A stretch of 51,907 nt of DNA from a bacterium (GTDB lineage: Bacteria; Joyebacterota; Joyebacteria; Joyebacterales; Joyebacteraceae). Shown piece after piece: positions 7,849-17,505 of the stretch; positions within the stretch are counted from its first letter, which is position 1; each line of letters starts with the position of its first letter. The notes under the pieces are model-generated. The model was not told the DNA's origin and searched no databases. It saw only the letters and a list, made by a program, of their open reading frames with translations. Both the position numbers and the translations under genes were made by a program. The stretch lies in contig JALGWI010000013.1 of the NCBI GenBank assembly GCA_025774245.1, positions 1-51,907 of the forward strand, read 5' to 3'.

Positions 7849-9051
7849 CTACCGTCCCCGGACGTTGACGTCGAACCGAATCCAATCGATGCTCTTCCCG
7901 TGTCGCTTCGGCCCTTGCCTGAGGCCGTAGTCGAGGATCTTGATGTCCACCCTGAGCGGACCGTCTCTCCACTTGAAGCTCCGACCGCGCTTCGGCTTCT
8001 TGCCGTGCCTCCCGTCGACGTCGATCCTGAACACGACCTCGCTCTCCCAGTCGTTGTCGCGGGTCAGCCGACCGACGATGGCGGTCGGACGCCCGTCGTA
8101 GCTCTCAACGCACTCGATGGAGAGGACGGCGGCCTCGTTCCCGTAGTAGATGTCGCGGTAGTAGGACTGGCCGCAGCGCTTCATCACGAACTCGTCGCGG
8201 AAGTGGCTGTCGCGGTGTCGCCCTCGCCTGTGCCGATCTTCCTCGACGTAGAACGAGACCGAGGCGCACGACCAGCGCTCCGGGCGGTCGTGCCACTCAG
8301 GGGGAACCGGCCAGTGACCGGGTCCGCCCACGACCACACGCTCATCGCGATCGTACCTGTCGCCGTCGTGGCGGACGAGCCGCTCGTCGCGGCCGTCCGG
8401 CCACCGGGGTCCTTCACTGCCGACCACGACGCCGCCCTCGCGAGCGCCCGGAGGGTAGTACGGATCCGGGCCGTACGTCGGCAACCACCGCCCGTACGGT
8501 CCGACGGGCCAGGCGACCTCGTGCGCGCAGGCGACGAGCGTCTCGATCCCGCTCCTCCCCGCGATCCTGAGCGAGTACCTCGTGCTCTCGGGAATGCGGT
8601 AGGCCCTCCCCGGTCGCACGAAGTTCATGCTCGACCACCTGTTCGGGAAGAGGATGTCCACGCTTCCGTCGGGCGAGTAGTCGACGATGGTCACGTAGCA
8701 GGGACGATCCACGCGGAAGTAGACCGACAGCCGTTCGCCCGGCCGGTAGGTCGACCACTCCCCGCGATCGATCCACATGCTGACCCTCGGGGGAGTGCGC
8801 GTGACGCGCCAGTGCCGCATGTCCCCGTTGGGACCACGCGGCTCCGGTCCTACGATGACCCTCTGCGCCGGCGCGTCCTGTTCTACCGGCCTCGGCTCGG
8901 CACCGGACTCGCTCTCCTCGACGGCGATGTTCGCGCCGCGCGCCGACGGCGAGAGAGCGAGGAGCGCGACCAATACAACGATCGCGCTCCAGAGTGCTGC
9001 CGCGTTCCGTCTTGCCTGAGTCGGTCCTGCAACAGCCATAGCAGTTCTCAT
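7849..9051 (-). CDS. Secreted DUF4384-domain protein
   Basis: A 400-residue exported protein. A long signal peptide or anchor (hydrophobic ALWSAIVVLVALLAL near residues 19-33) is followed by a DUF4384-like domain: MWIDRGEWSTYRPGERLSVYF, CYVTIVDYSPDGSVDILFPN and RPGRAYRIPE. DUF4384 is often fused to caspase-like or kinase domains; here it is alone. The middle (about residues 200-275) is a low-complexity stretch rich in Arg, Asp, Gly, Pro and Tyr. The end forms a second beta-rich domain (VVFRIDVDGRHGKKP ... VDIKILDYGL). The ATG at 9051 is chosen for GGAGG at eight bases upstream; an in-frame ATG at 9168 has no such site. Probably periplasmic. Confidence 0.78.
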   Translation of the reverse strand: MRTAMAVAGPTQARRNAAALWSAIVVLVALLALSPSARGANIAVEESESGAEPRPVEQDAPAQRVIVGPEPRGPNGDMRHWRVTRTPPRVSMWIDRGEWSTYRPGERLSVYFRVDRPCYVTIVDYSPDGSVDILFPNRWSSMNFVRPGRAYRIPESTRYSLRIAGRSGIETLVACAHEVAWPVGPYGRWLPTYGPDPYYPPGAREGGVVVGSEGPRWPDGRDERLVRHDGDRYDRDERVVVGGPGHWPVPPEWHDRPERWSCASVSFYVEEDRHRRGRHRDSHFRDEFVMKRCGQSYYRDIYYGNEAAVLSIECVESYDGRPTAIVGRLTRDNDWESEVVFRIDVDGRHGKKPKRGRSFKWRDGPLRVDIKILDYGLRQGPKRHGKSIDWIRFDVNVRGR

Positions 9052-9176
9052 TCTCTTCACCTCCTCTGCCGGTCCTGGGATCTCGTCTCCCCGACTTCTC
9101 CCCGATGTTCGATCGCCGGCCTTCTCCCCAACTGGTAGTTTCGACGAGTCGTCGATGTGGCTATTCATGAAACGAA

Positions 9177-10032: not shown

Positions 10033-10578
10033 CTACTGCGCTCCCAACGCCTCCCCGGTCGCACCTCCCTCGACTTCCTCTGCGAAGACCCAGATGACGG
10101 TCATCTCCGGGTCCTCCGACGTGAAGAACATCGGCGTGTAGCCCGCGGCGTACGTTTCGATGCTGTCGACGATGCAGTCGTCGCCGTTTCCGTTCGACCG
10201 GGAGAGAAGCCCCATCGGCCCGAGCGATAACACGACGAGCACGATCCCGGCGCACGCGCCGACCGTCGCGAGCACCCGTCTGCGGAAGGCGCCGTGGAGC
10301 GGTCGCACCTCCCGGAGTCGAGCCGATCTTCTGGTCTCCCTGTCGACCTCATCGAGCGCCTGCGAGAGGCCGACGCGGAACTCCGACCACCGCTCCTCAT
10401 GGAGCGCAGGCGGCCGCGCCGACGCAAGGATTCTATCAGATGCCCGGATCGAGTCAAGCTCACGGCTACAGGTTTCGCAGCGGCCCAGGTGTTCTTCGAC
10501 CTTCCGTCGCATCCGCTCCGGGAGCTCGTTGTCTACAAAGGCCGTGAGGTGCCGGAAAACCCGGCAATCCCGCTTCAT
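10033..10578 (-). CDS. Anti-sigma factor with zf-HC2 domain
   Basis: A 181-residue single-pass membrane protein. The N-terminal zinc-binding anti-sigma domain has C5, H10 and the H30-x3-C34-x2-C37 signature. One transmembrane helix lies near residues 103-123 (VLATVGACAGIVLVVLSLG), and a short periplasmic tail follows. By family knowledge the cytoplasmic domain sequesters the cognate ECF sigma factor until a signal releases it. The ATG at 10578 is three bases beyond the sigma stop codon, and its GGAGG site lies inside the sigma gene, so the two are translationally coupled. Confidence 0.88.
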   Translation of the reverse strand: MKRDCRVFRHLTAFVDNELPERMRRKVEEHLGRCETCSRELDSIRASDRILASARPPALHEERWSEFRVGLSQALDEVDRETRRSARLREVRPLHGAFRRRVLATVGACAGIVLVVLSLGPMGLLSRSNGNGDDCIVDSIETYAAGYTPMFFTSEDPEMTVIWVFAEEVEGGATGEALGAQ

Positions 10579-10581
10579 TCT

Positions 10582-11205
10582 CTAGTCCCCTCCTCCTTCC
10601 CCCATCACCGATGTTCCACCATCGACGTAGGGCTCGAGCATGGTTCTGAGCTTCTTTCTGGCGTAGTGAAGGCGCGACATCACAGTTCCTATGGAGCAGC
10701 CCACGATCTCGGCAATGTCCTTGTAGGAGAGCCCTTCGATCTCGTAGAGGACGAAGACGGACTTGTGGTATGGCGGAAGTGCGTCGACCGCCTTCTGAAT
10801 CTGCTCCCCAAGCTCGCCGGAGAGCACCAGGTCGCCGGGACCGCGCGGTCTACCTGTCTCGACGGCGTCACTTCCGGCGTATTCAGCGACCTCTTCGGGA
10901 ACCGTCTGGGCATCGACGGACCGCGATCGCTTCCTCGTGTAGTCGATACACGTGTTCATCGCGATGCGGTAGAGCCAGGTGGAGAAGCTCGATTTCCCCC
11001 TGAAGCTCTTGATCCCGCGATACGCTCGGATGAACACATCCTGCGAGAGATCGAGAGCGAGGTCCGGGTCCCGCGCGAATCGGTAGGCCACCGCGTAGAC
11101 GATGTCCTTGTGGCGCTCGACGAGTTCGTCGAACGCCCCGCGATCGCCTGCCTGGGCGGCCTTGACCCTCTCGAGATCGAGTTCCTTGGGATCACGCTCG
11201 GGCAT
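10582..11205 (-). CDS. ECF RNA polymerase sigma factor
   Basis: A 207-residue sigma-70 family ECF protein. Region 2 includes FDELVERHKDIVYAVAYRFA, DLALDLSQDVFIRAYRGI and STWLYRIAMNTCIDY. A variable linker follows. Region 4 has AVDALPPYHKSVFVLYEIEGLSYKDIAEIVGCSIGTVMSRLHYARKKL, a complete helix-turn-helix for -35 recognition. The ATG at 11205 has GAGGG upstream. It heads the operon with the zf-HC2 anti-sigma factor and an exported protein. An autoregulated promoter is expected but none could be named with confidence in the 167-base upstream gap. Confidence 0.93.
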   Translation of the reverse strand: MPERDPKELDLERVKAAQAGDRGAFDELVERHKDIVYAVAYRFARDPDLALDLSQDVFIRAYRGIKSFRGKSSFSTWLYRIAMNTCIDYTRKRSRSVDAQTVPEEVAEYAGSDAVETGRPRGPGDLVLSGELGEQIQKAVDALPPYHKSVFVLYEIEGLSYKDIAEIVGCSIGTVMSRLHYARKKLRTMLEPYVDGGTSVMGEGGGD

Positions 11206-11372: not shown

Positions 11373-12728
11373 CTAGTACTCAATCTCCCCGAATTCCCTG
11401 AGTTTGCCGGTCACGAGCTCCTGAATCTCACTGAGCCGCTGTTCATTTCTGGCCTCGAAACGCATCACGATGACCGGCTGGGTGTTCGACGCCCTCACGA
11501 GTCCCCAGCCGTCGCCGAAGAGGATCCTGACCCCGTCGACGTCGATCACGTCGTAGTTCGCCTTGAAGTACTCGACGGCCTTCTCGACCATCTCGAACTT
11601 CGTTGCGTCGTCGCTCGTCTCGCCGCGGATCTCCGGCGTCGAGTAGTACTTCGGGATCGTCGCCACCATCTTCGAGAGCGGCTCGTCGGTCCTGGACAGC
11701 ATCTGGAGGATCCGGCACGACGCGTAGATCGCGTCGTCGAACGGATAGTAGTCGTCGGCCAGGACCATGTGGCCGCTCATCTCGCCGCCGATCGGTGCCC
11801 CGCTCTCGTTGATCTTCTTCTTGAGGAGCGAGTGGCCGGTCTTCCACATGACGGGAGTCCCGCCGTGCGCCTCGATGTCCTCGACGAGCGCCTGCGAGCA
11901 CTTGACATCGAAGATGACCTCCGCCGGTCCCTTCGCGAGGATCTCCCGAGCGAGGAGCGCGAGCACCTTGTCGGCGAAGACGAACTCCCCCCTCTCGTCG
12001 ACGGTCCCGACGCGGTCGGCGTCGCCGTCGTAGCCGATCCCGACGTCGGCGCCCTCAGATTTCACCGTGGCGATGAGGTCGGTGATGTACTCCAGCACCG
12101 TCGGATCGGGATGGTGGTTCGGGAAGTCTCCGTCCGGCTCGCAGAAGAGCGGTATGACCTCGCATCCGAGGCTCGAGAGGAGGTCGCACGCGACGAGGCT
12201 CCCGCAGCCGTTTCCCGCGTCGACGACGACCTTGAGCGGCCGCTCGAGGTGGATCCTCTGTCGGATTGCGTCCGTGTAGGCGTCGAGGACCTCCGCTGTC
12301 GACCGCGTCCCGGCGCCTTCCGCGAACTCCCCCGCCTCGATGATCGAGCGCACGGCCTGGATCTCCGCGCCGTACATCGAGTCCTTCCCGGCGTTGAGCT
12401 TGAGCCCGTTCATGTCGGGAGGATTGTGGCTCCCGGTGATCATGACGCCACCGTCTACCGGAAGCTCGTAGAGGCTGAAGTAGAACGCAGGTGTAGGGAC
12501 GGTCCCGACGTCGATCACGTCGATGCCGACCGAGAGGAGCCCCTCCGTGATCCGCTCCCTGAAGCGCGCGGTCGAGTGGCGGACGTCGCCGCCGAGAGAG
12601 ACCTTGCTCCCGCCTCGCCGGCTGATGTACGTCCCGAATCCCTTCCCGATCAGCCGGACGACCTCTTCGGTCAGGTCGTCGTCGACCACCCCGCGGATGT
12701 CGTACTCCCGGAAGATGTGGCCCTGCAT
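11373..12728 (-). CDS. Phosphomannomutase/phosphoglucomutase
   Basis: A 451-residue alpha-D-phosphohexomutase. All four domains are visible: N-terminal FREYDIRG, the phosphoserine loop MITGSHNPPDMNG (Ser100), the metal-binding loop GYDGDADRVGTVDE, the sugar-binding loop GGEMSGHM, and the C-terminal phosphate-binding RASNTQPVIVMRFEA. It interconverts hexose 1- and 6-phosphates for polysaccharide or glycoconjugate synthesis; the dual-specificity (AlgC-like) type is most likely. The ATG at 12728 follows AAAGGAGA. Downstream member of the trpS operon on the minus strand. Confidence 0.93.
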   Translation of the reverse strand: MQGHIFREYDIRGVVDDDLTEEVVRLIGKGFGTYISRRGGSKVSLGGDVRHSTARFRERITEGLLSVGIDVIDVGTVPTPAFYFSLYELPVDGGVMITGSHNPPDMNGLKLNAGKDSMYGAEIQAVRSIIEAGEFAEGAGTRSTAEVLDAYTDAIRQRIHLERPLKVVVDAGNGCGSLVACDLLSSLGCEVIPLFCEPDGDFPNHHPDPTVLEYITDLIATVKSEGADVGIGYDGDADRVGTVDERGEFVFADKVLALLAREILAKGPAEVIFDVKCSQALVEDIEAHGGTPVMWKTGHSLLKKKINESGAPIGGEMSGHMVLADDYYPFDDAIYASCRILQMLSRTDEPLSKMVATIPKYYSTPEIRGETSDDATKFEMVEKAVEYFKANYDVIDVDGVRILFGDGWGLVRASNTQPVIVMRFEARNEQRLSEIQELVTGKLREFGEIEY

Positions 12729-12823
12729 CGTCTCTCCTTTCGTGGTCCGCGGTGATGCGGCGAAGGCTGCGGCCGCGGGAGTGCTGCGCCTGCGCGGCGC
12801 TTGGGCGGCCGGCTCGTGGTCTC

Positions 12824-13438
12824 TCAGGCCTCCTCCTCGTACTCGATGTCGGGCGCGAGGAGTGCGAGGTCGGCCGACTTTCCGATCGCCCGGCGGACGT
12901 CGACCCACCAGTGCTCGCCGTGCGCGCTCAGGAACTCGACTCCGAAACTGCTCGGTCCCGTGACCCTGATCCGCACCCACGCCTGCCCGCCTTCTCCCCC
13001 GGGATCGACTCGGACGTCGAACAGGCCGAAATCCTCGAGCGTCTCTCGCAACAACGGGAAGCGCATCGGGTCGCGGCGCGCGCTCTCGTCGAAGATGTAG
13101 AGCGCCGCGCGGGTCAGGCTGATCTCGGCCGGGAAGGAACCGCCCCGCTTGCCGTTCACGAGCCGTGCCCGAAGTCCGCGCTCCCTCCGGACGAGCCCCT
13201 CCTGGAGGATACCCTTCTCCCACCCCTCGCGCGCGGCCTTTGTCTTGCGCCTTCTCCATATCTGCGTGAGGACCGCCAGGAGCGGCGCGACGAAGTAGCC
13301 GAGCGCCCTTGCCGGCTTCGCGAGGGAGGAGAGATCTATGTCGATGGAGCCGCGGTACCGGTAGACGACGTAGGCGACGGCGAGCACCGCGAGTGCGACC
13401 GGGACCCAGCGTTCGTTCCGTTCTTCGGCCAACGGCAT
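12824..13438 (-). CDS. Hypothetical membrane protein
   Basis: A 204-residue protein with two N-terminal hydrophobic segments (WVPVALAVLAVAYVVYRY and ALGYFVAPLLAVLTQIW), then a basic stretch and a soluble domain of about 130 residues with WVRIRVTGPSSFGVEFLSA and HWWVDVRRAIG. The soluble part has PH-like strand lengths, but that is only an impression. No family recognised. The ATG at 13438 is used because upstream in-frame codons lie inside trpS; an AGAGG is close to it. Lies 64 bases after trpS and 95 before the phosphomutase gene, so probably co-transcribed. Confidence 0.65.
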   Translation of the reverse strand: MPLAEERNERWVPVALAVLAVAYVVYRYRGSIDIDLSSLAKPARALGYFVAPLLAVLTQIWRRRKTKAAREGWEKGILQEGLVRRERGLRARLVNGKRGGSFPAEISLTRAALYIFDESARRDPMRFPLLRETLEDFGLFDVRVDPGGEGGQAWVRIRVTGPSSFGVEFLSAHGEHWWVDVRRAIGKSADLALLAPDIEYEEEA

Positions 13439-13502: not shown

Positions 13503-14498
13503 TCAGCCGGCCGTCCCCTCGAACGCCACCCCGGTCCTCTCCTTGACCTCGGCCATGGTCGCCCTGGCGATCGGCCGAGCCCTCTCCCCGCCGTCACGGA
13601 GGATGCGTCGCAGCTCCTCCGGACGGGCCAGAAGGTCCGTGCGCTTCTCGCGGATCGGCCCGATGAGTTCCTTCATGTGCTCGATGAGGATATTCTTGCA
13701 GTCGAGACAGCCGATCCCGGCTGTCCGGCAACCCTCCGCGCAGTGCTCGAGCTCCTCGGGCGTAGAGAACACCTTGTGATAGCTGTAGATGTTGCAGACG
13801 TCCGGGTTCCCGGGATCGTCCCTCCGCTTGCGCGCCGGATCGGTCGGCGCCGTCGAGAGCTTCTTCGTGATCACCTCGTCGGTGTCGTCGAGGTAGAGGC
13901 AGTTGTCGAGGCTCTTGCTCATCTTGTCGACGCCGTCGAGGCCGAGGATTCTGGCGCCGCTCGAGAGCACCTCCGCGGGCTCCGGGAACGTCTCGCCGAA
14001 GGTGTTGTTGAAACGTCTCGCGATCTCCCTCGTGAACTCGAGGTGCGGGACCTGATCCTCCCCGACCGGGACGATCTCCGATCGGTAGAGCAGGATGTCG
14101 GCCGCCATGAGGACGGGGTAACCGAAGAGCCCCATGTTGACGTTGTCGGGGTTCTGCCTGACCTTCTCCTTGAAGGTCGGTATGCGCGAGAGCCTTCCCA
14201 TCGGGGTGACGCAGTTCAGGATCCACGCGAGCTCGACGTGCTCGGGGACGTGCGACTGCACCATCATGATGCCCCTCTCGGGATCGAGCCCCGCCGCGAG
14301 GTAGCTCGCGGCCGCGTCGAGAACGCGCCCCTGCATCTCCGATGGATCGTAGCGGGCCGTCATTGCGTGGTAGTCGACGATGCCGAAGACCGGCTCGTAC
14401 GAATCCTGAAGGGCGGTCCACTGCTTGATCGCCCCCAGGTAGTTCCCGATGTGAAGCCGTCCGCTCGGCTGGATACCGCTGAAGAAGTTCTTCCTCAT
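13503..14498 (-). CDS. trpS: Tryptophanyl-tRNA synthetase, probable [4Fe-4S] type
   Basis: A 331-residue class I aminoacyl-tRNA synthetase charging tRNA-Trp. The HIGN motif is at residues 16-19 and KMSKS at 192-196, with the TrpRS-typical GDDKTF-equivalent region and MGLFGYPVLMAADILLY between them. The anticodon-binding region carries four cysteines spaced C235-x21-C257-x6-C264-x2-C267, nearly the C-x22-C-x6-C-x2-C pattern of the iron-sulfur TrpRS of Thermotoga. A cluster there is inferred, not shown. The ATG at 14498 has a GGGAG site. A promoter lies at 14580-14609. Confidence 0.95.
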   Translation of the reverse strand: MRKNFFSGIQPSGRLHIGNYLGAIKQWTALQDSYEPVFGIVDYHAMTARYDPSEMQGRVLDAAASYLAAGLDPERGIMMVQSHVPEHVELAWILNCVTPMGRLSRIPTFKEKVRQNPDNVNMGLFGYPVLMAADILLYRSEIVPVGEDQVPHLEFTREIARRFNNTFGETFPEPAEVLSSGARILGLDGVDKMSKSLDNCLYLDDTDEVITKKLSTAPTDPARKRRDDPGNPDVCNIYSYHKVFSTPEELEHCAEGCRTAGIGCLDCKNILIEHMKELIGPIREKRTDLLARPEELRRILRDGGERARPIARATMAEVKERTGVAFEGTAG

Positions 14499-14629: not shown

Positions 14630-16888
14630 TCACTCCGGATCGACCGCGAGGATCTCGAGCCGCTGTCTGGCCTCGTCCAGCTCCGGGTTCGCCTTGAGCG
14701 CCAGCTCGTACGAGCGGATCGCCGCTCCCGTGTCGCCCGACGCCTCGTGGAAGCGTCCCGCCGCGACGTAGACCTCTTCCCGCGCGGCTCCCGTCCCGTC
14801 CTCGGAACCGCCGAGAGACAGAAGCGCCGCAACGCTCTCGTCCGCCTCCTCGAGCCGACCGAGCCCGACGAGGCCGATGACCATCTCACCGTAGACCGCG
14901 GGGTCGTCCGGCCGCTCCGCCCTGTACCGCTCGAGGTGCCCGAGAGCCGCCTCGTAGTCGTTCAGCCGGAGGTAGAGCCGCGCCACCCACATCCGACGGG
15001 AGAGATCCGGGGGATCGGCCGCGACGGTCGCTTCGAGAACCGTCAGCCCCTCGGCGAGTCGACCCGAGTTCACGAGCGCCTCACCGTACCAGAACTGGTA
15101 GGCCGAAGCTCCCGGATCGAGCGTGCTGGCCTTCCGGAACTCCTCCACCGCCTGCCCCCACTCGTTCGCGAGTCCGGCCGCGAGACCGCGACCGAAGTGC
15201 GCCTTCGCGAGGTCCGCCGCGCCGATCCGCGGGACGAGACGGCGGGTATCCAGGAGCACGGCGAACGGCTCAAGCTCCGTCTCGAACTCGAAGGCCTGCT
15301 CCGCCGACTCGATCGTGACCCACTCCTCGTACGACCACACCCCCAGGTCGATCGTGAGGGGAAGCGGCGTCCTGTAGATCTCGCCCTCCTGGGAGATCGT
15401 GCCGCGAACGAGATGGCCCCCGCCGCGAGCAACCGACTCATACTCGAGGACGTACGTCGGCAGATCACCGCGGTAGACCCACTCGTAGAAGTACCAGTCG
15501 AGGTCGCTGCCCGAGGCCGTCTCGAAGGCGTTCACGATCTCGCGGAGCCCGATCGCCTCACCCGCGTGCACCCGCGCGATCTCCCCGAGCGCGCGGCAGA
15601 AGGCATCGCGGCCGATCAGGTGTTCCAGGAGCTCGAAGAGAGCGGAGCCCTTCCCCCGACAGACGCGCGGGTCGTTCGACGGCGACGGACCGAGGCACGC
15701 CTTCAAGGGCGCGCGTCCGCCGGAGTCGACGAGCGCATCGACGTACAGAGCCAGCATCGACTCCCTGCTTCTGACGGTGCCCTCGCTGTCCCCGGTCGCC
15801 TCGAGCCATGCCAGCTCCGCGTAGCTCGCAAGCCCTTCGGAGACGAGTGGTCCGGCATCCAGGAGACACGGCCACCAGCTCCGCGACAGCTCTGACGCGT
15901 AGAAGATCGGGTCCCTCGGAAGCGGCGACCGCGGCCTGCCGGTTCGTGCCACGACGAACCCGGGCCCCATCACGACGGACGGCGCCGTCAGCGGTTGGGC
16001 GGGGGCGTTCACGACATTGAGCCAGCCGAACGGATAGGGACCGAAGCATGTCTCGAGGAATCGAACGACGGGTTTGAGGCCCGAATCGTCGAGCTTCGGA
16101 TTCGGCGCTCTGCCGGGCCGGCCGTCGGTCGACGGCGGCACGATCGTGAAGCAGTTCACGAAGACGTCTCCGAGCACGGAGAGCGTGCTCTCGAACCTGC
16201 CGACGCCGGCGGCGGCGCGGGTCACCGGGGAATCGACGCGCCAGATGTCTCCATCGGCGCAGGGGTCCGAGCGCTCCGTGAGGGACGGCGCCATGCCCGA
16301 CAGCGTCCCGGTCGCTACGCTCGAGTATCCCTCCGGGTAGCGCACCACGATGTGGAAGGTCGCCGGGTCGTGTACGACGGGAACCGGGTGCCAGTCCGAC
16401 TCCGCTCCGAGGAGAACGAGATCGGGCCCCCTCCGGACGCCTCTGCCTGCAAGCTCGCCCTCGTAGCGCACCTCGATCCGGATCGGCTCCTCGCCGGCGC
16501 CTTCCGGCACCGACACCTCGAGAGATGGCCCGCTCCGCTCGTGCGCGAGTGCACGGCCGCCCGTGAGCCTGACGGACAGAACGGAGAGCTGCTCGTTCAG
16601 GCGGAACCGCACGTGAGGGGTCCGGGCGAGCACCGAGATCGTGCTCTCGCCCGAGATCGCGCGGGTGCGCGGGTCGATGCAGACCTCGATCTCGTGGTGG
16701 AGCACGTTCTGCTCCTCGAGGGCCAGGCGCGCCGCTTCGACGCGCTCGTCGTCGAGAGCGATGAGCTCCGCGAGCGCGGACGCTGCGTGGTCCGTGATGA
16801 TCGGTGCGAACGGCACCTGTGCCGCCGCCTCTGCCCCCGCGAGCGCGACGAGAACTGCCGCGACCGCGAGTCCCAGCACTTGCCTCAT
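14630..16888 (-). CDS. M1-peptidase-like protein lacking zinc histidines, with TPRs
   Basis: A 752-residue exported protein. After a signal peptide (MRQVLGLAVAAVLVALAGAEAAA) comes an M1 aminopeptidase-like N-terminal beta domain (residues about 60-240) and a catalytic-like domain. Where M1 enzymes have HELAHQWWG, this protein reads SELSRSWWP (332-340), so both zinc histidines are replaced; the third ligand position (SEGLASYAE, Glu351) remains and the spacing is shortened by four. It therefore should not bind zinc in the usual way. The C-terminal 200 residues form tetratricopeptide-like repeats. The ATG at 16888 has GGAGGGG upstream. A scaffold or substrate-binding pseudoenzyme is inferred. 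Confidence 0.82.
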   Translation of the reverse strand: MRQVLGLAVAAVLVALAGAEAAAQVPFAPIITDHAASALAELIALDDERVEAARLALEEQNVLHHEIEVCIDPRTRAISGESTISVLARTPHVRFRLNEQLSVLSVRLTGGRALAHERSGPSLEVSVPEGAGEEPIRIEVRYEGELAGRGVRRGPDLVLLGAESDWHPVPVVHDPATFHIVVRYPEGYSSVATGTLSGMAPSLTERSDPCADGDIWRVDSPVTRAAAGVGRFESTLSVLGDVFVNCFTIVPPSTDGRPGRAPNPKLDDSGLKPVVRFLETCFGPYPFGWLNVVNAPAQPLTAPSVVMGPGFVVARTGRPRSPLPRDPIFYASELSRSWWPCLLDAGPLVSEGLASYAELAWLEATGDSEGTVRSRESMLALYVDALVDSGGRAPLKACLGPSPSNDPRVCRGKGSALFELLEHLIGRDAFCRALGEIARVHAGEAIGLREIVNAFETASGSDLDWYFYEWVYRGDLPTYVLEYESVARGGGHLVRGTISQEGEIYRTPLPLTIDLGVWSYEEWVTIESAEQAFEFETELEPFAVLLDTRRLVPRIGAADLAKAHFGRGLAAGLANEWGQAVEEFRKASTLDPGASAYQFWYGEALVNSGRLAEGLTVLEATVAADPPDLSRRMWVARLYLRLNDYEAALGHLERYRAERPDDPAVYGEMVIGLVGLGRLEEADESVAALLSLGGSEDGTGAAREEVYVAAGRFHEASGDTGAAIRSYELALKANPELDEARQRLEILAVDPE

Positions 16889-17091: not shown

Positions 17092-17505
17092 ATGTCACCC
17101 GGTTACAGCGAGAAGGTCCTGGAGCACTTCCGGAATCCGCGGAACGTGGGGAAGTTCGAGAATCCCGACGGCGTCGGAGCCGAAGGGAACCCGGTCTGCG
17201 GAGACCTCATGGAGATCCACATCCTCGTCGAGGACAACAGGATCAAGGACATCAGGTTCCAGACCTTCGGATGCGGTTCTGCGATCGCGACGAGCAGCAT
17301 GGTCACCGAGCTCGCGAAGGGCAAGACGCTCGAGGAGGCGCTGGAGATCACCCGACAGGACGTGGCCGACGAGCTCGACGGTCTCCCGCCGCAGAAGATG
17401 CACTGCTCGAACCTCGCGGCCGACGCGCTGCACAAGGCGATCGAGGACTACTGGAAGAAGCACGGAGGAGGTCCGGCCGAAGATCCCAAGAAGAAGACCG
17501 ACTAG
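17092..17505 (+). CDS. Iron-sulfur cluster assembly scaffold (IscU/NifU N-terminal type)
   Basis: A 137-residue scaffold protein. The three cluster-ligating cysteines are Cys36 (NPVCGD, with Asp38), Cys61 (FGCGSAIATSS) and Cys105 (HCSNLAADAL). The family assembles a transient 2Fe-2S or 4Fe-4S cluster with sulfur from a cysteine desulfurase and passes it to apo-proteins. No desulfurase or IscA is next to it here, so it is an isolated scaffold gene; the many ferredoxin-like proteins in this window are plausible clients. It has its own promoter (17029-17057) and a terminator (17541-17566). Confidence 0.92.
   Translation: MSPGYSEKVLEHFRNPRNVGKFENPDGVGAEGNPVCGDLMEIHILVEDNRIKDIRFQTFGCGSAIATSSMVTELAKGKTLEEALEITRQDVADELDGLPPQKMHCSNLAADALHKAIEDYWKKHGGGPAEDPKKKTD

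Follow-up and report, generated by a model that had tools for sequence, protein, structure and literature searches.

The window, the whole 51,907-nucleotide stretch of Joyebacterota DNA analysed here, carries on its minus strand an open frame running from 16969 to 14630, with the ATG at 16888 as its likely start, which encodes a protein with an M1 aminopeptidase-like body and a tail of tetratricopeptide repeats (TPR). Its N-terminus resembles a signal peptide and is hydrophobic also in the orthologues that are complete at this end; we infer from these sequences that the protein is secreted, probably to the periplasm. Wherever a contig was long enough, the gene order among orthologous loci was the same: phosphomannomutase, trpS, the M1-like gene, a divergent NifU gene and a lytic transglycosylase.

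Table 1. Features of the M1-like gene, its product and its nearest neighbours in the window
Feature	Residues	Position	Strand	Basis or remark
M1-like pseudopeptidase CDS with TPR tail	752 aa	14633..16888	-	Stop codon 14630-14632; orthologues
Probable signal peptide	1-24	16817..16888	-	Judged by eye from sequence
N-terminal beta domain (M1 domain I)	60-249	16142..16711	-	Model and structure match
Catalytic-like domain (M1 domain II)	268-473	15470..16087	-	Model and structure match
Beta-sandwich domain III	479-546	15251..15454	-	Model, conservation; most conserved domain of the clade
TPR superhelix	557-749	14642..15220	-	Pfam, model; where large M1 enzymes have helical domain IV
Cys70	70	16679..16681	-	Candidate disulfide partner of Cys210
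Cys210	210	16259..16261	-	Candidate disulfide partner of Cys70
Cys281	281	16046..16048	-	18/18 in dead clade, 0/29 in HEXXH-bearing relatives
Cys398	398	15695..15697	-	18/18 in dead clade, 1/29 in relatives
Cys431	431	15596..15598	-	18/18 in dead clade, 0/29 in relatives
GAMEN exopeptidase motif region, motif lost	297-309	15962..16000	-	Alignment; loop alignment uncertain
SELSRSWWP replacing HELAHQWWG (HEXXH lost, WW kept)	332-340	15869..15895	-	Sequence, alignment
Glu351, position of third zinc ligand	351	15836..15838	-	Glu in 10/18 orthologues
RGKG replacing Y-x-K-G	411-414	15647..15658	-	Alignment; catalytic Tyr lost in 18/18
trpS, conserved downstream neighbour		13503..14498	-	Pfam, synteny; context only
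NifU/IscU-like gene, conserved divergent neighbour		17092..17505	+	Pfam, synteny; context only

Assignment to the M1 fold was carried mainly by profile and structure comparison. The Pfam Peptidase_M1 model (PF01433) gave the window protein 18.5 bits, below the cut-off of 27.7, and NCBIfam gave sub-threshold matches only; 12 of 18 family members matched Peptidase_M1 at an E value of 0.01 or better, those of genomes G003 and G019 scoring above the PF01433 cut-off. A profile built from the 18 orthologues, searched against PDB, matched the Deinococcus radiodurans M1 metallopeptidase 6a8z (E 6.9e-11, profile positions 34-453). The AlphaFold model of the window protein (pLDDT 84.0, pTM 0.70) showed an N-terminal beta domain, a helical catalytic domain, the beta-sandwich domain III and a TPR superhelix; it superimposed on the Deinococcus enzyme 6ifg_B with a Z score of 28.4 (rmsd 4.0, 398 residues) and on tricorn factor F3 with a Z score of 28.1 over 440 residues. 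Best Foldseek matches were M1 aminopeptidases, and the structure matches listed for the model are M1-type enzymes, placing the protein in the M1 fold superfamily (gluzincin aminopeptidase fold, a beta saddle followed by a thermolysin-like domain II). An earlier reading of the sequence alone had called both the M1-like fold and the TPR tail long and intact; the former is borne out by profile and structure although Pfam stays sub-threshold, and the latter by well-supported Pfam repeats.

The best profile and structure match, the two-domain D. radiodurans M1 zinc metallopeptidase (6a8z, 6iff, 6ifg), covers domains I and II; its chain is only about 430 residues long and so lacks domain III and the TPR tail. 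According to the entry titles its zinc site is present and substrates are bound in the structures, whereas the window protein has lost the zinc site. Large M1 aminopeptidases (tricorn factor F3, PepN, IRAP, ERAP1), in which domain III is a beta sandwich and domain IV a helical superhelix, have the same domain order; the window protein differs from them in the loss of all catalytic positions and in a helical tail that is recognised as TPR.

Read directly on the minus strand, the sequence SELSRSWWP does stand where active enzymes have HELAHQWWG, as first reported. Counted from the position of the first histidine (S332), E351 lies 19 residues downstream compared with 23 in HEXXH-X18-E, confirming a distance four residues shorter; from the second-histidine position the spacing is X14 rather than the X18 of active M1 enzymes. 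Among 92 HEXXH-bearing rows, some of which repeat one gene, X14 was absent (X18 in 65, X17 in 19, X15 in two, X20 in one, and five unread by the pattern). Glu351 itself had been described as retained, which is true of the window protein but not of its family, where the position is Glu in ten, Asp in three and Ala in five of the 18 orthologues.

Across the 18 orthologues HEXXH was found in none. The first zinc-binding histidine was missing from all (Leu in eight, Ser in seven, Gly, Trp and Ala in one each), the general-base glutamate was kept in eight, and the second histidine in four (otherwise Arg in 11, Lys in two, Ala in one). Since the four orthologues with the second histidine carry Ala at the distal glutamate, every orthologue has at most one zinc ligand out of three. 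The catalytic tyrosine was likewise missing from every orthologue (Arg in nine, Gly in six, Glu, Leu and Lys in one each), so the loss is wider than the sequence-only reading had proposed. By comparison, all five active-site positions were intact in 29 of 29 HEXXH-bearing M1-like outgroup rows, seven of them from the same phylum (six genes, one of which was read twice) and the other 22 from outside it. No GxMEN-like string occurred in the 18 orthologues; we regard GAMEN as a weak feature because 10 of the 28 active outgroup rows lack its glutamate too. The register of the alignment is supported by W338, W339 and the GxYP motif, which remain invariant. An alternative zinc site built from other histidines was considered and dropped, no histidine being invariant in the family. 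HEXXH, the X18 spacing of the glutamate, the YxKG tyrosine and GAMEN, which mark active peptidases of family M1, are all missing.

Exact duplicates were removed before these counts. The outgroup excluded L055, the N-terminal fragment of the G004 gene split at a contig end, and L027, L031 and L032, which matched through TPR only, were unused; L065_0 reads the L060_1 gene a second time, is included in the 29 outgroup rows and was removed for the later 28-row comparisons.

Orthologues were present in 18 of the 20 genomes examined from this phylum-level group, which represent one family and eight genera, and in all eight of the genera. Each was matched at an E value of 2.4e-183 or lower, compared with 2.4e-31 for the best match outside the phylum, and phage records contained no match to the gene. 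A scan of named genomes turned up a single orthologue, in the metagenome-assembled genome BHB10-38_Bin_124 (JALGZK010000002.1), and its protein is identical to that of G001; BHB10-38 is listed as a bottom-layer sample of Bohai Sea sediment (PMC12345210). Errors of sequencing or assembly, and a recent mutation confined to the window genome, are refuted as explanations, with a negligible probability, by the 17 other genomes that share the loss; nothing was found in its favour, and no orthologue within the phylum had kept HEXXH.

In a tree of 44 rows (L020, L022 and L065_0 omitted) the 16 proteins without the active site formed one clade, supported at 100/100, whose stem is long (1.51 changes per column); the phylum's own active paralogues were placed elsewhere. 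The simplest reading is that the site was lost a single time, before the eight genera separated, rather than by mutation of a present-day aminopeptidase gene. Zinc site, general base and transition-state tyrosine would all have been given up once, ahead of the divergence of these genera. Which active group lies closest is uncertain. Active M1 proteins carrying GYGMPS or GNWxEG motifs (L066, L023, L069 and others) branch as sister to the dead clade with weak support (82/70) and share a short spacing, X17 or X15, but all of them keep HEXXH, the distal glutamate and the tyrosine.

Evidence that the gene is maintained came from substitution patterns as well as distribution. Simple Nei-Gojobori estimates of dN/dS, made without a significance test, were 0.138-0.250 in the M1 part (16 closest pairs) and 0.07-0.58 in the TPR part (eight closest pairs), the latter range making constraint on the tail less sure. 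The dead gene diverged faster than an active paralogue in 15 of 15 genome pairs (for example, 55% versus 76% identity); taken with the dN/dS of the M1 part, this indicates a gene that is constrained, but less so than the enzyme. The faster divergence, and a possible loss in genome G009, would also suit a gene decaying toward a pseudogene, but this is very improbable given frames free of stops in all 18 orthologues (two of them, L020 and L022, cut by contig ends), the low dN/dS and retention across eight genera. The suggestion that the gene is kept under purifying selection is upheld by the same dN/dS range together with its presence in 18 of 20 genomes and 8 of 8 genera. Homology to an enzyme, loss of essential residues and maintenance of the gene, the three marks of a pseudopeptidase, are therefore all found here, and the clade-wide extent of residue loss and maintenance upholds the original reading of the protein as an M1 pseudopeptidase.

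Conservation in the clade has moved away from the former active site. Forty-four positions were near-invariant in the dead clade and seldom shared by active relatives, many of them packed closely into residues 496-540 of domain III, and mean conservation was highest in the domain III core (0.77), followed by the TPR tail (0.62), the former HEXXH helix (0.59) and the GAMEN loop (0.50). The catalytic domain has gained Cys281, Cys398 and Cys431, and a fourth cysteine that lies at position 410 in 11 sequences and at 405 in five others, never at both, and is missing in two. In the N-terminal domain Cys70 and Cys210 were absent together, in L021 only. This pattern in the sequences suggests disulfides, by which the cysteines peculiar to the family probably stabilise the domain that has no zinc.

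The same residues allow another view, that the protein is still an enzyme with a new zinc-independent chemistry, for instance on C281, C398 and C431 or on the invariant D406 and R375. The three cysteines, present in all 18 orthologues and nearly absent from active relatives, and the invariant and clade-specific D406 speak for it, and drift at the old catalytic positions is compatible with another ligand or chemistry in the pocket. We nevertheless consider it unlikely: invariant cysteines in secreted proteins often serve to form disulfides, residues of the old pocket vary among the 18 orthologues, and no new catalytic-looking motif was recognised in the family.

Active M1 genes are patchy in the phylum. 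Near-complete genomes in which PF01433 found no other Peptidase_M1 match still carry the dead gene; it was the only copy seen with PF01433 in G003 (100% complete), G013 (100%), G011 (98%), G018 (94%), G014 (90%) and G017 (78%). The dead gene therefore need not partner an active M1, and an obligate partnership was dropped from consideration. A role in regulating an active M1 aminopeptidase of the same cell, or in acting as its decoy partner, draws on the presence of active M1 genes in some of these genomes and on the observation that pseudoenzymes sometimes regulate their active cousins, as described in PMC11266112; with six genomes carrying, as far as PF01433 shows, the dead gene alone and the active paralogues in another part of the tree, it is improbable.

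Of 20 other M1 matches examined in the phylum, 18 keep HExxH, and two short ones (L119 and L124) show no such motif. L106 and L108 (G010:C4 and G004:C44) encode an M1-like protein of 427 residues in which HETAH is followed at a short distance by the distal glutamate, apparently another M1 subfamily of the phylum. Outside the phylum, 59 of 60 further matches, taken from a longer list and biased toward lookalikes of the dead clade so that they form no census, keep HEXXH and the distal glutamate. The remaining match, L145 (G074:C302:22300-25300), aligns in its C-terminal half only and without HEXXH; by eye it combines a transglutaminase-type N-terminal part with an M1-like C-terminal half.

Taken as a whole, we favour, with a probability of roughly 65%, a secreted and catalytically dead M1-fold pseudopeptidase whose zinc site was lost once and which would now serve as a scaffold or adaptor. 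A protein-binding scaffold role, as the sequence-only reading had suggested, is plausible and probable, with domain III and the TPR superhelix as the surfaces through which it would act. TAF2 of TFIID, which is not known to have zinc ligands, is a precedent for a dead M1 fold in a structural role. Its aminopeptidase-like fold has been placed inside TFIID (PMC6220335, PMC4309443). TAF2 is eukaryotic and nuclear, and orthology with the pseudopeptidase is not claimed. A bolder extension would make the protein a bacterial counterpart of TAF2, that is, a phylum-defining, secreted, zinc-free M1 fold, braced by disulfides and extended by a TPR superhelix, acting as the core scaffold of an undescribed cell-envelope complex and kept more widely than any working M1 found; this proposal we hold as tentative and rather doubtful. 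Yeast Tma108, an M1 family member, is listed as a pseudopeptidase that has kept HExxH-x18-E (PMC11266112), whereas the Joyebacterota protein has lost HEXXH. The pseudometallopeptidases shown in that review are eukaryotic. No bacterial M1 pseudopeptidase was found in the openly licensed literature, which is weak evidence of absence. Pseudopeptidases as such are already known; the clade-wide variant is new. An aminopeptidase fold that lost its whole metal site was kept across the eight genera examined from an uncultured phylum-level lineage, where its active cousins are retained less consistently. It offers a clean case in which to ask what an enzyme fold does after catalysis is lost, since domain III and newly acquired cysteines, no longer the pocket, are now the conserved parts.

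The neighbours trpS, NifU, the phosphomannomutase-type gene and the lytic transglycosylase suggest no common pathway. As conservation extends to the entire block, the shared gene order tells little about function, and linkage to these genes was dropped as a source of functional hints. Two genomes yielded no orthologue. The absence from G005 is an assembly gap, since that assembly also lacks trpS and NifU. In G009, which is 90% complete, the gene was not found although it might be expected: trpS and NifU sit on separate contigs, no part of the pseudopeptidase gene is matched in the 458 bases preceding NifU, and the frames upstream of trpS are unrelated, so that loss or rearrangement is possible. 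One of these frames, IS3-type transposase-like by eye, lies in L097 (G009:C216, 1825-2805, minus strand) on the side where the pseudopeptidase would be expected, and may mark such an event.

Two further observations concern the adjoining part of the window. In the phosphomannomutase-type frame (11373-13259, minus strand) about 180 residues precede domain I; L081 aligns with it over its full length, and most loci align only from about residue 130-174. Beyond it, between 7849 and 11205 on the minus strand, an ECF-type sigma factor (10582-11205) comes first, then a zinc-finger anti-sigma-like gene (10033-10578) and a gene for a DUF4384 protein (7849-9168), an order conserved in the phylum.
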